Assembly: GCF_001522585.2 (NCBI RefSeq)
Contig: NZ_CP013372.1
Coordinates: forward strand, 2,666,001-2,730,000
From: Burkholderia sp. NRF60-BP8
Lineage (GTDB): Bacteria; Pseudomonadota; Gammaproteobacteria; Burkholderiales; Burkholderiaceae
Direction of reading: 5' to 3'
Length of the DNA: 64,000 nt
A program made the position numbers and the translations under genes. Positions 35,077 to 39,132 of this stretch are shown one piece after another (position 1 is the first letter of the stretch; each line of letters opens with the position of its first letter). The notes beneath the pieces were generated by a model. The model saw nothing but the letters and a program-made list of their open reading frames with translations, made no database searches and was not told where the DNA came from.

Positions 35077-35107
35077 TACGTATGAGGATCTACGTAGAAT
35101 TACGTAG
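35077..35107. promoter_or_regulatory. Triple TACGTA operator candidate
   Basis: The core TACGTA occurs at 35077, 35091 and 35101, the central one as the palindrome CTACGTAG. It is AT-rich within GC-rich DNA and lies 150 bases upstream of cstA and 90 bases upstream of the divergent DapF-like gene, so it could control either. Confidence 0.5.
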
Positions 35108-35196
35108 ATGCGTGGCGCCTGCATGCCGTCAGGCCGCGATTGCCCGCGACCGGCGAGCCACGTACAGTATTTGCCTGCCTCCATTCCGGAACCGCC

Positions 35197-36006
35197 ATGC
35201 CGATCGGATTTCAGAAGATGAACGCGAATGGCGATGACTTCGTCATCGTCGACCTGCGCGGCCGGGAACACGATCCCGCGCAGCGCATCGATCGCGACCT
35301 CGTGCGGCGCATGGGCGACCGGCGTCGCGGCATCGGCTTCAACCAGCTCGCGGCGATCTCGAACGACGACGACGCAGCCGCGCGCGTCGCGTTCTGGAAT
35401 CCCGACGGCTCGGCGCTCGATACCTGCGGCAGCGCGACGCGCGGCGTCGCATGGAAGCTGATGCGGGAAACCGGCGCGGCGTCGGTCGTGCTGCGCACGA
35501 ATCGCGGGCGCCTGCACTGTGCGCAGGCGGCGGATGGGCTGATCGAGGTCGAAATGGGCGCGCCGCGGCTCGGCTGGCAGGACGTGCCGCTCTCGGAAGC
35601 CGTCGACACGCTCGCGCTGCCGCTGCCCGGTGCGCCGGCCGCCTGCAGCATGGGCAATCCGCACTGCACGTTCTTCGTCGACGACGTCGCTGCGCTCGAC
35701 ATCGAAGCGCTCGGCCCGCCGATCGAAGCGCATCCGCTGTTTCCGCTGAAGACCAACGTCCATTTCGTGCAGGTCCTCAGCCGCACGCATGTCCGTCTAC
35801 GTATCTGGGAACGCGGCGGCGGCGTGCCGCTCGGCTCCGGCTCGTGTTCGTGCGGCGCGGTGGTCAACGGCGTCCGGCGCGGGCTGCTCGACGACACCGT
35901 GCGGGTGACGTGCGACGGCGGCGACGTCACCGTTCGATGGGACGGCGCAGGCAGCGCGTTCCTGAGCGGGCCGGTGACGTTCGGGTTCGACGGAGTGTGG
36001 CTGTGA
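35197..36006 (+). CDS. Diaminopimelate-epimerase-like protein with altered active site
   Basis: 269 residues with the two-lobed DapF fold. The first catalytic cysteine is present (Cys77 in WNPDGSALDTCGSATRG). In the second lobe the DapF pattern ERGxGETxACGTG reads ERGGGVPLGSGSCSCG, so the position of the second catalytic Cys holds Ser214 and the Gly-Glu-Thr substrate loop is Gly-Val-Pro. Loss of one thiol usually abolishes two-base racemisation; in the related proline-racemase family a Cys-to-Thr change makes a dehydratase. It is therefore probably not the DAP epimerase of lysine synthesis. It overlaps the ECF41 sigma gene by 4 bases (GTGA). Confidence 0.8.
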   Translation: MPIGFQKMNANGDDFVIVDLRGREHDPAQRIDRDLVRRMGDRRRGIGFNQLAAISNDDDAAARVAFWNPDGSALDTCGSATRGVAWKLMRETGAASVVLRTNRGRLHCAQAADGLIEVEMGAPRLGWQDVPLSEAVDTLALPLPGAPAACSMGNPHCTFFVDDVAALDIEALGPPIEAHPLFPLKTNVHFVQVLSRTHVRLRIWERGGGVPLGSGSCSCGAVVNGVRRGLLDDTVRVTCDGGDVTVRWDGAGSAFLSGPVTFGFDGVWL

Positions 36007-36890
36007 CGCCCGACGACGCACGAACTTTCCACGCGCTGCGCCCGCGCCTGCAGAAGATCGCGTACCGGATGCTCGGTTCCGTCGCGGATGCCGAGGACAT
36101 CGTGCAGGACGTGTGGCTGCGCTGGCACGACGCGGCGCGCGACAGCATCGAGAACGCCGAGGCGTGGCTCGTCGCGGTCACGACGCGGACGTCGATCGAT
36201 CGCCTGCGCGCGGCGAAGCTCCGGCGCGAGCACTATACGGGTATCTGGCTGCCCGAACCGGAGCTCGGCGAATCGCCCGCGACGCCCGAGGAAATGACGG
36301 AGCGCGCGAACGACGTGTCGGTGGCGTACCTGCTGTTGCTCGAACGGCTGACGCCGGAAGCGCGCGCGGCGTTCCTGCTGCACGAAGTCTTCGAGTTCGA
36401 CTATGACCGGATCGCCGACGCGATCGGCAAGACCGAAGCCGCGTGCCGGCAGCTCGTCAGCCGGGCCCGGGCGCGGCTGCGCGACGATACCCTGCCGCGG
36501 CATGCGGTGCCGCACGAAACGCATCGCCGGCTCCTGAAGACGTTCACGCAGGCGCTCGCGCAAGGCGACTTCCCGTCGATCCAGGCACTGCTCGCCGAAG
36601 ATGCGATGCTGATCGGCGACGGCGGCGGTCACGTCCAGAGCTTCCCGAAACCGATGGTCGGCGGCCGGCGCATCGCTCAACTGTTCTATGCGACGTGGTT
36701 GCGCTGCGGCAGCGGTGTCGAGATGCGGCCGGTCGTGCTCAACGGCCAGTGGGCGCTGCTGCGCTTCATCGACGGGCGGCTCGAAGCGGCGATGGCGTTC
36801 GAGACCGACGGTACGCGCATCGGCCGGATTCTCGTGCAGCGCAACCCCGACAAGCTCGCCCGGATCGCGGCTGCCTCCGCCGCCGGCTGA
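36003..36890 (+). CDS. ECF41-type RNA polymerase sigma factor
   Basis: 295 residues. Sigma region 2 (AYRMLGSVADAEDIVQDVWL) and region 4 are followed by a C-terminal SnoaL-like domain that controls activity in place of an anti-sigma factor. The three ECF41 hallmarks are present: WLPEP in the linker (residues 82-86), DGGGH (206-210) and NPDKL (281-285). GTG start at 36003 overlaps the stop of the DapF-like gene, so they are translationally coupled. ECF41 factors recognise TGTCACA-N16-CGTC and are linked to COE genes (carboxymuconolactone decarboxylase, oxidoreductase, epimerase); these lie directly downstream. Confidence 0.93.
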   Translation: MTPDDARTFHALRPRLQKIAYRMLGSVADAEDIVQDVWLRWHDAARDSIENAEAWLVAVTTRTSIDRLRAAKLRREHYTGIWLPEPELGESPATPEEMTERANDVSVAYLLLLERLTPEARAAFLLHEVFEFDYDRIADAIGKTEAACRQLVSRARARLRDDTLPRHAVPHETHRRLLKTFTQALAQGDFPSIQALLAEDAMLIGDGGGHVQSFPKPMVGGRRIAQLFYATWLRCGSGVEMRPVVLNGQWALLRFIDGRLEAAMAFETDGTRIGRILVQRNPDKLARIAAASAAG

Positions 36891-37069
36891 CGCGTGCATC
36901 GCGCGCCGGCCGCGGTCGAGCGCGGATTGGTGCAGCGCGCGCAACACGATGCGTCCCCGTGCGTGGCTACCGCCCGCTAGCGCACACTCCTAAGATGATT
37001 TCGCGCGGCGCCCTGCCGCCCACGACACCCGCGCAGCGCGGGCCAGCCTCTTCGTCGCCAGGAGAAATC

Positions 37070-37549
37070 ATGACGCAGCGTATCAACTACATTCAACAGT
37101 CGCCCGAGCTGTTCAAGAAATTCCTCGAACTCAGCAATCAGCTGCGCAACAGCGCGATCGAGGAATCGATCCGGGATCTCGTGTCGCTCCGCGCATCCCA
37201 GATCAACGGCTGCGCGTTCTGCGTCGACATGCACGTGAAGGAAGCGCGCATCCACGGCGAGCGCGAGCTGCGTCTGCACCATCTGACGACGTGGCGCGAA
37301 TCGACGCTCTTCTCGCCGCGCGAGCGGGCCGCGCTCGCATGGACCGAAGTCCTGACGACACTGCCCGAGCACGGCGTACCGGACGACCTTTACGATCGCG
37401 TGCGCGGCCAGTTCTCCGAGAAGGAATTGTCGGACCTGACCTTCGAAGTGATGGCGATCAACGGCTGGAACCGCGCGAACGTCGCGTTCCGGACCGTGCC
37501 GGGCTCGTCCGACAAGGCGTTCGGCCTCGACAAGGCGAATCTCGCCTGA
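37070..37549 (+). CDS. Carboxymuconolactone decarboxylase/AhpD-like protein
   Basis: 159 residues, all helical. The redox motif CxxC with following His is seen at NGCAFCVDMH (Cys48, Cys51, His55), as in AhpD-type alkylhydroperoxidases. This is the usual partner of ECF41 sigma factors, here 179 bases downstream of the sigma gene. An AGGAGA ribosome site precedes the ATG. It probably reduces a peroxide or acts in a small-molecule redox step; the substrate is unknown. Confidence 0.9.
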   Translation: MTQRINYIQQSPELFKKFLELSNQLRNSAIEESIRDLVSLRASQINGCAFCVDMHVKEARIHGERELRLHHLTTWRESTLFSPRERAALAWTEVLTTLPEHGVPDDLYDRVRGQFSEKELSDLTFEVMAINGWNRANVAFRTVPGSSDKAFGLDKANLA

Positions 37550-38065: not shown

Positions 38066-38092
38066 TGTCACAGGCAGCAGCGCTGAAACGTC
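38066..38092 (+). promoter_or_regulatory. ECF41-type promoter
   Basis: TGTCACA (38066-38072) and CGTC (38089-38092) are separated by exactly 16 bases, the published consensus of ECF41 sigma factors. It points to the LysR gene, whose ATG lies 35 bases beyond. No other TGTCACA-N16-CGTC was noticed in the gaps of this cluster. An ECF41 gene lies 1.2 kb upstream. Confidence 0.75.
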
Positions 38093-38127: not shown

Positions 38128-39132
38128 ATGCCCGACACCTCCATTCGCCGCCCCGATGCCGACGATCCGTTCGCGCGCAGCTTCTCGACCTGCTATGCCG
38201 GCGTGGTCACCTTTCTGGCCGTCGTCACCGAAGGCAGCTTCGCGCGCGCCGCCGATCGCCTCGGCGTCGGCCGCTCGTCCGTCAGCCGCCACGTGCAACG
38301 GCTCGAGGACCGGCTCGACGCACGCCTGTTCCAGCGCACGACCCGCAGCGTGTCGCTGACGCGCGAAGGCGAGCTCTTCTACGAAAACTGCCGGCCCGGC
38401 ATCGAGCGTCTGGCGCAGGCGCTCGAGGACATGCGCGAGCTGCGCAGCGGGCCGCCGAGCGGGCACCTGCGCATCGGCTCGACGCCGGGTTTCGGCCGCA
38501 AGGTCGTCGCGCCGCTGCTGCGCGATTTCCATGCGCGGTATCCGGACATCACGCTCGACCTGCTGCTGAACGACCGGCCGGCCGATTTCTCCGCCGACCG
38601 CATCGACGTCGCGTTTCGCGACGGCCGCATGGAGGACAGCGCGATCGTCGCGCGCCGGCTGATTCCGATGCAGATGATCGTCTGTGCGTCGCCGGCTTAC
38701 GCGCACCGGCACGGCTTGCCGCGCCACGTCGACGATCTCGCCCGGCATCGCTGCATCAACCTGTGCACCGCGTCGGGCCGCGTGACGGAATGGGAATTCA
38801 GGATCGACGGACTGACGCAGCAGCGTCAGGTCGCCGCGCATCACACGTTCAACGACATCGACCTCGTCGTGCGCGCGGCGCTCGACGGGCTCGGCATCGC
38901 GCAACTGCCGGCGTATCAGGTGTGCGACCTGCTCGCCGACGGCCGGCTGGTAAGCTGTCTCGGCCAGCATGCGCCGGACGACGGCGGACACTACCTCTGC
39001 TACCTGAGCCGCAAGCACCTGCCCACGCGCATCCGCGTGTTCATCGACTACATGATCGAACAGACGCGTGCGCGCGACCTGCAGTGCCCGGCCACGATGA
39101 CGACGATGGCGCCGCTGGAGACGATCGATTGA
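38128..39132 (+). CDS. LysR-family transcriptional regulator
   Basis: 334 residues. The N-terminal winged helix reads SFARAADRLGVGRSSVSRHV, unusual in having a 20-residue lead before the domain; the rest is a LysR substrate-binding domain (GHLRIGSTPGFGRKVVAPLL). Its ATG lies just downstream of the ECF41-type promoter, so the sigma factor may switch on this second-tier regulator. The NmrA, Ohr and SDR genes follow on the same strand. Confidence 0.9.
   Translation: MPDTSIRRPDADDPFARSFSTCYAGVVTFLAVVTEGSFARAADRLGVGRSSVSRHVQRLEDRLDARLFQRTTRSVSLTREGELFYENCRPGIERLAQALEDMRELRSGPPSGHLRIGSTPGFGRKVVAPLLRDFHARYPDITLDLLLNDRPADFSADRIDVAFRDGRMEDSAIVARRLIPMQMIVCASPAYAHRHGLPRHVDDLARHRCINLCTASGRVTEWEFRIDGLTQQRQVAAHHTFNDIDLVVRAALDGLGIAQLPAYQVCDLLADGRLVSCLGQHAPDDGGHYLCYLSRKHLPTRIRVFIDYMIEQTRARDLQCPATMTTMAPLETID

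Follow-up and report, generated by a model that had tools for sequence, protein, structure and literature searches.

A mobile one-thiol DapF-like protein of Burkholderia, with Ser-type relatives that appear to be housekeeping DapFs in a Rhodobacterales family

A DapF-like gene at positions 35197..36006 (+ strand) of the window, the whole 64,000-nucleotide stretch of Burkholderia DNA analysed here, encodes a 269-residue protein of a one-thiol type, in which the first catalytic cysteine (Cys77) is retained and the second catalytic position is a serine (Ser214). Our main reading, to which we give a probability of roughly one half, is that this gene encodes a catalytically competent Ser-type epimerase of the DapF family, which would work mainly from L to D and probably on a diaminopimelate (DAP)-like substrate. 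A broader proposal, which we advance somewhat more tentatively, is that the protein represents a mobile one-way epimerase of soil and plant-associated bacteria, with a single thiol and a Ser-x-x-Cys motif replacing the second catalytic cysteine, that chemistry of this Ser-x-x-Ser/Cys kind supplies meso-DAP in the majority of genera of a Rhodobacterales family, and that the two-thiol rule is not general.

The source genome comprises 7.08 Mb in 3 contigs, and its relatives are Burkholderia. The gene was defined by translation of the open reading frame, Pfam, NCBIfam and alignment to structure chains. The protein scores 128.3 bits against the Pfam model DAP_epimerase (PF01678; cut-off 34.7) and 177.7 bits against the NCBIfam DapF equivalog model TIGR00652 (cut-off 114.65). 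Alignment to the DapF chains of solved structures places Cys77 (codon 35425..35427, + strand) on the first catalytic cysteine and Ser214 (35836..35838, +) on the second, equivalent to Cys73 and Cys217, respectively, of H. influenzae DapF. An earlier note on this DNA had described a DapF-like frame with Cys77 kept and a serine at the second catalytic position, and the alignment agrees, both residues being present in 81 of 81 sequences (the window protein and the best 80 of 173 relatives). Two nearby cysteines that could have taken the catalytic place were checked in the same alignment, and neither does: Cys217 (35845..35847, +), three residues past Ser214, aligns with a glycine, and Cys219 with an ordinary cysteine five past the catalytic one. 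The loop described in the note as a changed GET motif does read VPL here, but its glutamate is already replaced by isoleucine, valine or leucine in Cys-type alphaproteobacterial DapF, so this part of the change is not tied to the loss of the cysteine. The intact dapF expected elsewhere in the genome was found on a different contig, as a Cys/Cys DapF that is 38% identical to the window protein (G000:C2:3327246-3328088).

The predicted structure of the window protein (mean pLDDT 85.9, pTM 0.86) matches DapF structures, and a trans-3-hydroxyproline dehydratase structure is also among the fold matches. The distal-site residues N68, N154, N187, E205 and R206 are each present in 81 of 81 sequences (window protein and best 80 of 173 relatives); by motif they map to N66, N164, N197, E215 and R216 of Anabaena DapF, which bind the distal part of DAP (PMC12039745). 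Canonical Cys/Cys DapFs, such as those of H. influenzae, E. coli and the source genome itself, share with the window protein the predicted fold, Cys77 and the distal site, whereas they differ in having both catalytic cysteines, a glycine at position 217 and the N13/D49 pair.

The evidence that one thiol may suffice comes from a second tier of matches in a 398-genome sample of the phylum, mostly in one alphaproteobacterial family. Identical plasmid stretches link three of the genomes to Octadecabacter, Neotabrizicola and Qingshengfaniella, the first two of which belong to the Rhodobacterales; Octadecabacter sp. SW4 is of the Ser type. In a set of 120 genomes of this family, each from a different genus, a TIGR00652 match is present in 112, exactly one in 109, and absent from 8; in the 109 single-match genomes, position 214 of the sole DapF match is serine in 80 and cysteine in 29. 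A gene that a sequence motif suggests to be mtaB follows dapF at all 17 Ser-type loci, at 25 of the 26 Cys-type loci and at both loci of unassigned state, in a set of 45 higher-scoring loci with flanks that is not a random draw. No meso-DAP dehydrogenase scored above the cut-off in any of the 120 genomes, and weak matches below it occurred in 20. Given its standing as the sole DapF, the dapF–mtaB synteny and the lack of a meso-DAP dehydrogenase above the cut-off, the Ser-type protein is apparently the housekeeping DapF and appears to be the meso-DAP-making enzyme in these Rhodobacterales. An enzyme without the second thiol can thus, it seems, still serve as a DAP epimerase, and because the Ser-type relatives are apparently the sole DapF of most genera sampled, the Cys-to-Ser change has probably modified the enzyme without inactivating it. 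The premise that a two-base racemase needs both thiols, from which the earlier note had argued, is not supported, since the same serine occurs in the apparently housekeeping DapF of 80 of the 109 single-match genomes. Outside the family, position 214 is cysteine in 70 of 70 DapFs from 70 other alphaproteobacterial families, drawn from 80 such genomes with a match, and two of the ten remaining genomes, read separately, also have cysteine. Three of the eight family genomes with no DapF match (G746, G751 and G794) are 98–100% complete; these eight may use another route to meso-DAP or may reflect assembly gaps. We recognised no description of a Ser-type DapF in the titles and abstract openings of the open-access PMC papers that literature searches listed.

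The serine at 214 is accompanied by changes at two further positions. In the 132 sequences of the Rhodobacterales family, the residues at 214 and 217 are paired as C-G in 35, S-S in 89, S-C in 6 and S-G in 2, and all 55 rows of the mobile clade, to which the window protein belongs, have S-C. More broadly, position 217 is glycine or alanine in Cys-type DapF with one exception, and serine or cysteine in nearly all Ser-type sequences. In DapF, the backbone NH of the glycine at this position is described as close enough to the second catalytic sulfur for a hydrogen bond (PMC12039745), which puts the coupled side chain at 217 next to the lost thiol. Position 158 carries threonine or serine instead of valine or isoleucine in 94 of 97 Ser-type but 0 of 35 Cys-type rows of the family. 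A Burkholderiaceae DapF (locus L136, genome G086) has both catalytic cysteines plus a cysteine at 217, and Cys217 alone is therefore no marker of the clade.

A scan of species genomes with peptide patterns gave 173 confirmed places, and the best 80 comprise 56 from Pseudomonas, 20 from Burkholderia, 2 from Rhizobium and 1 each from Ensifer and Labrys. C77, S214, C217 and C219 are each present in 81 of 81 sequences (these 80 and the window protein) and are also invariant in 30 Burkholderia sequences found without the patterns. Since it is present in all 81, Ser214 is not drift. Cysteines 77, 108, 157, 217, 219 and 239 of the 269-residue clade protein are invariant, and Cys150 is nearly so. Across 435 pairs of the 30 Burkholderia sequences, the median pairwise dN/dS is 0.31 (range 0.14–0.58), and selection on the clade is purifying but not strong. 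A full-length relative (66–100% identity) occurs in 33 of 65 Burkholderia genomes, the source genome included; among 249 genomes of the wider family, matches of 483–503 bits were confined to 15, all of one genus, and the next matches reached at most 215 bits. Clade members are few in the plasmid collection, where one, from Paraburkholderia, is truncated, and none was seen among the 10 phage-collection matches listed.

The mobile gene accompanies another DapF rather than replacing it. A second DapF-family match (36–42% identity) is present in 32 of the 33 Burkholderia carriers, in one case as a partial match, and another TIGR00652 protein is present in 15 of 16 carrier genomes probed. The exception in both sets is one strain, B. 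cenocepacia NCTC13227; it was considered as a genome without another dapF and was rejected, since its match at the dapF locus stops exactly at a contig end. No genome relying on the mobile-clade enzyme alone was found among the 33 Burkholderia carriers and the 16 carrier genomes probed.

The active site of the clade carries a further set of fixed changes. A10, D13, N49, S79 and G83 occur in 55 of 55 clade rows, whereas the same positions are G, N, D, N and C in all 132 Rhodobacterales-family sequences and in 16 of 16 other DapFs; position 213 is glycine in the clade and alanine or serine in those 132 and 16. Asp13 (codon 35233..35235, +) stands where all other DapFs examined have asparagine, and Asn49 (35341..35343, +) where they have aspartate, or in one further Rhizobiales DapF glutamate, the two residues being swapped jointly. 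With the 70 of 70 DapFs from other alphaproteobacterial families that keep N13 and D49, the canonical pair is found in 218 DapFs. The peptide patterns behind the best 80 loci include D13 and N49, and their invariance among those loci is therefore partly built in; the pair is also invariant in the 30 pattern-free Burkholderia sequences and in plasmid copies from Pantoea, Sphingomonas and Rhizobium. By its motif position (PMC12039745), D13 replaces the asparagine that contacts the proximal amine. The fixed changes at 13, 49, 79 and 83 make it likely that the function of the clade has shifted. Clade copies score above the cut-off of the curated DapF model and are named dapF in both annotated plasmid records examined, but given the fixed active-site changes this name is probably incorrect or does not tell the whole function.

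These residues also bear on what the enzyme might act upon. One alternative is a plain additional DAP epimerase, perhaps retained because a one-thiol form would be immune to being switched off by a disulfide between the catalytic cysteines; such a reversible disulfide is reported to regulate C. glutamicum DapF (PMC5296763). The TIGR00652 cut-off is passed and the distal pocket is kept, as this alternative would have it, but the N13/D49 pair kept in the 218 DapFs of three sets is altered in the clade, and every carrier checked, bar the contig-end case, already has another DapF-family protein. We regard this alternative as unlikely. The D13/N49 swap together with S79, G83 and G213, all near the proximal amine and carboxylate, and the intact distal pocket suggest instead a DAP-like substrate, and our preferred epimerase would act on a DAP-like amino acid other than, or besides, DAP itself.

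Both phylogenetic trees recover the mobile clade as a single, fully supported group, and its nearest outside relatives are the DapFs of the Rhodobacterales family. Its exact placement depends on the columns used. When the motif columns are kept, the clade nests within the Ser-type Rhodobacterales group (SH-aLRT 98, quick search), and when they are removed, the Rhodobacterales family and the clade group together (97/98), so that a single clean placement was not obtained. On the motif-free tree, whose bootstrap had not converged, position 214 requires 3 changes. With the motif columns removed, AU tests rejected neither a grouping of the Rhodobacterales family by itself (p 0.776) nor one that unites all Ser rows (p 0.835); the motif-free tree and both tests exclude 7 rows judged to be long-branched, truncated or outlying. 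The serine at 214 may accordingly have had one or more origins.

A mechanism for the one-thiol epimerase can be outlined from work on two-thiol relatives. L,L-aziDAP alkylates the cysteine equivalent to Cys77, and D,L-aziDAP the cysteine that is serine here (PMC12039745); the kept thiol is therefore the one that faces the L centre. Cys77, as the counterpart of the thiol facing the alpha position of that centre, would act as the base, and Ser214 would return a proton from the opposite face, aided by the side chain at 217, which is serine in most of the Rhodobacterales family and cysteine in the mobile clade. Such an enzyme would run chiefly from L to D. An aspartate/glutamate racemase with a Cys/Thr pair is likewise reported to convert L-Asp to D-Asp irreversibly (PMC8142540). 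Against this mechanism, turnover is greatly reduced in Cys-to-Ser mutants of histidine racemase (PMC11602996), and activity is almost completely lost in Cys-to-Ala mutants of C. glutamicum DapF (PMC5296763). These impaired cysteine mutants would be consistent with an active Ser-type enzyme if such an enzyme required the coupled changes at 217 and 158.

The same single thiol could also support elimination, and the earlier note had pointed to the related proline-racemase family, in which loss of one cysteine creates a dehydratase. On the premise that no reprotonation occurs without the second thiol, Cys77 would take the alpha proton and a beta group would depart from a DAP-like amino acid bearing a hydroxyl or thioether group, making the protein a beta-eliminating dehydratase or lyase. 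Precedents make this possible: the human trans-3-hydroxyproline enzyme, with a Cys-to-Thr change, is a dehydratase, Cys-to-Ser mutants of glutamate racemase catalyse elimination from chloroglutamate, and with some fluorinated substrates DapF itself expels fluoride (PMC8142540). Moreover, the clade-specific Asp13 could provide an acid close to the amine of the substrate. The outcome is not implied by the loss of the cysteine alone, however, because the same Cys-to-Ser change occurs in apparently housekeeping DapF and the substitution itself is therefore no pointer to elimination; nor was a gene of a matching pathway conserved alongside in 86 loci. Taken together, we consider a dehydratase or lyase improbable, and the Rhodobacterales evidence favours a one-way epimerase.

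In the window, the DapF-like gene sits between cstA and a sigma factor gene (36003..36890, +). That the two genes overlap by four bases and that the sigma factor is of the ECF41 type, both claimed previously, were confirmed: the GTG start at 36003-36005 and the TGA stop at 36004-36006 share GTGA, and the sigma factor scores 387 bits with TIGR02957 and 298 bits with the SigJ model, above both cut-offs. A SnoaL-like domain, also attributed to the sigma factor, was not detected by Pfam at E 0.001. Downstream lies a carboxymuconolactone decarboxylase (AhpD-like) gene (37022..37549, +; Pfam/NCBIfam, start picked by eye), a usual type of ECF41 partner (PMC3426412).

The proposed coupling of enzyme and sigma factor holds locally, with an ECF41 gene overlapping or adjacent in 10 of 33 Burkholderia carriers, but does not extend beyond the genus, as none of 64 loci outside Burkholderia shows an ECF41 relative in its fetched flanks. 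Within the genus, 21 of the 33 carriers lack any ECF41 relative at E 1e-90, and of 18 genomes that carry the sigma gene 6 have no intact DapF-like gene, 2 of these with remnants beside the sigma gene. A general coupling to ECF41 was rejected on the 21 carriers and the 64 loci. The earlier suggestion that the enzyme might change the ligand of the sigma factor found no support in these data. These counts also weigh on the idea that the protein is non-catalytic or regulatory, for example one that supplies the ECF41 extension with a ligand or that interacts with another protein: the adjacency in Burkholderia would fit it, but the absences in both directions and the invariance of Cys77 and the substrate pocket speak against it, and we hold it to be very improbable. 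The overlap with the ECF41 gene is probably co-transcription in one lineage and not part of the mechanism of the epimerase.

Possible control elements were sought around the gene. A promoter-like TTGCCC-N17-TACAGT, read by eye, lies upstream at 35140..35168 (+), and its TACAGT is found in 28 of 30 Burkholderia sequences, the source genome's own included. Three copies of TACGTA at 35077-35106, just upstream of this site, have similar counterparts in many, though not all, Burkholderia orthologs and are a possible operator. The reported ECF41 promoter, TGTCACA-N16-CGTC (PMC3426412), has one exact pattern match in the window, at 38066..38092 (+), and it precedes not the DapF-like gene but a LysR-type gene, 62 bases before the start placed at 38128. 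The whole genome contains 2 matches, the other lying outside the window at G000:C1:2755451-2755477, against 1 for the reversed control pattern, and the number alone is therefore near chance. All six loci that bear ECF41 retain the match at 38066 ahead of the LysR gene; it is absent from 3 other loci checked, which also have no LysR gene in the fetched stretch. The LysR-type regulator gene is thus a candidate ECF41 target.

In 86 loci analysed with a home-made gene caller, the contexts of the DapF-like gene vary and no pathway gene is conserved beside it. In Pseudomonas, a GNAT-like gene extends some 20 bases into the beginning of the DapF-like gene in seven loci (L078, L086, L097, L098, L102, L104 and L110), and a glyoxalase-like gene does so by about 10 bases in three (L077, L095 and L114), suggesting local operons; these calls also come from the home-made caller, and one of each was checked with Pfam. 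A function from neighbours was rejected, the local overlaps in the 86 loci being too scattered to assign a pathway.

Other enzymes set the window clade in context. HisR, CntK and O-ureidoserine racemase have a DapF-like fold and act on compounds other than DAP, as the clade may do, and O-ureidoserine racemase is also a sequence match of the window protein. CntK and O-ureidoserine racemase have two catalytic cysteines. HisR, too, is unlike the clade in having two (PMC11602996). The Cys/Thr aspartate/glutamate racemase and trans-3-hydroxyproline dehydratase share with it the replacement of one thiol by a hydroxyl residue, but act on other substrates (PMC8142540). The closest likeness is to the Rhodobacterales Ser-type DapFs, which have Cys77, Ser214, a polar residue at 217, mostly threonine or serine at 158, and the distal pocket. 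Whereas these are usually single-copy, have N13, D49, N79 and C83, and lie in a dapF–mtaB locus, copies of the window clade are additional and mobile, carry D13, N49, S79, G83 and Cys217, and occur in varied contexts and not in dapF–mtaB.

DapF has been described both as an epimerase with two thiols and as a target for drugs. Should a large bacterial family make its cell-wall amino acid with one catalytic thiol, the mechanism of DapF and its thiol–thiolate pair would need re-examination, as would the proposed redox switch and inhibitors directed at the second cysteine. The observation opens the question of how a Ser-type DapF works.
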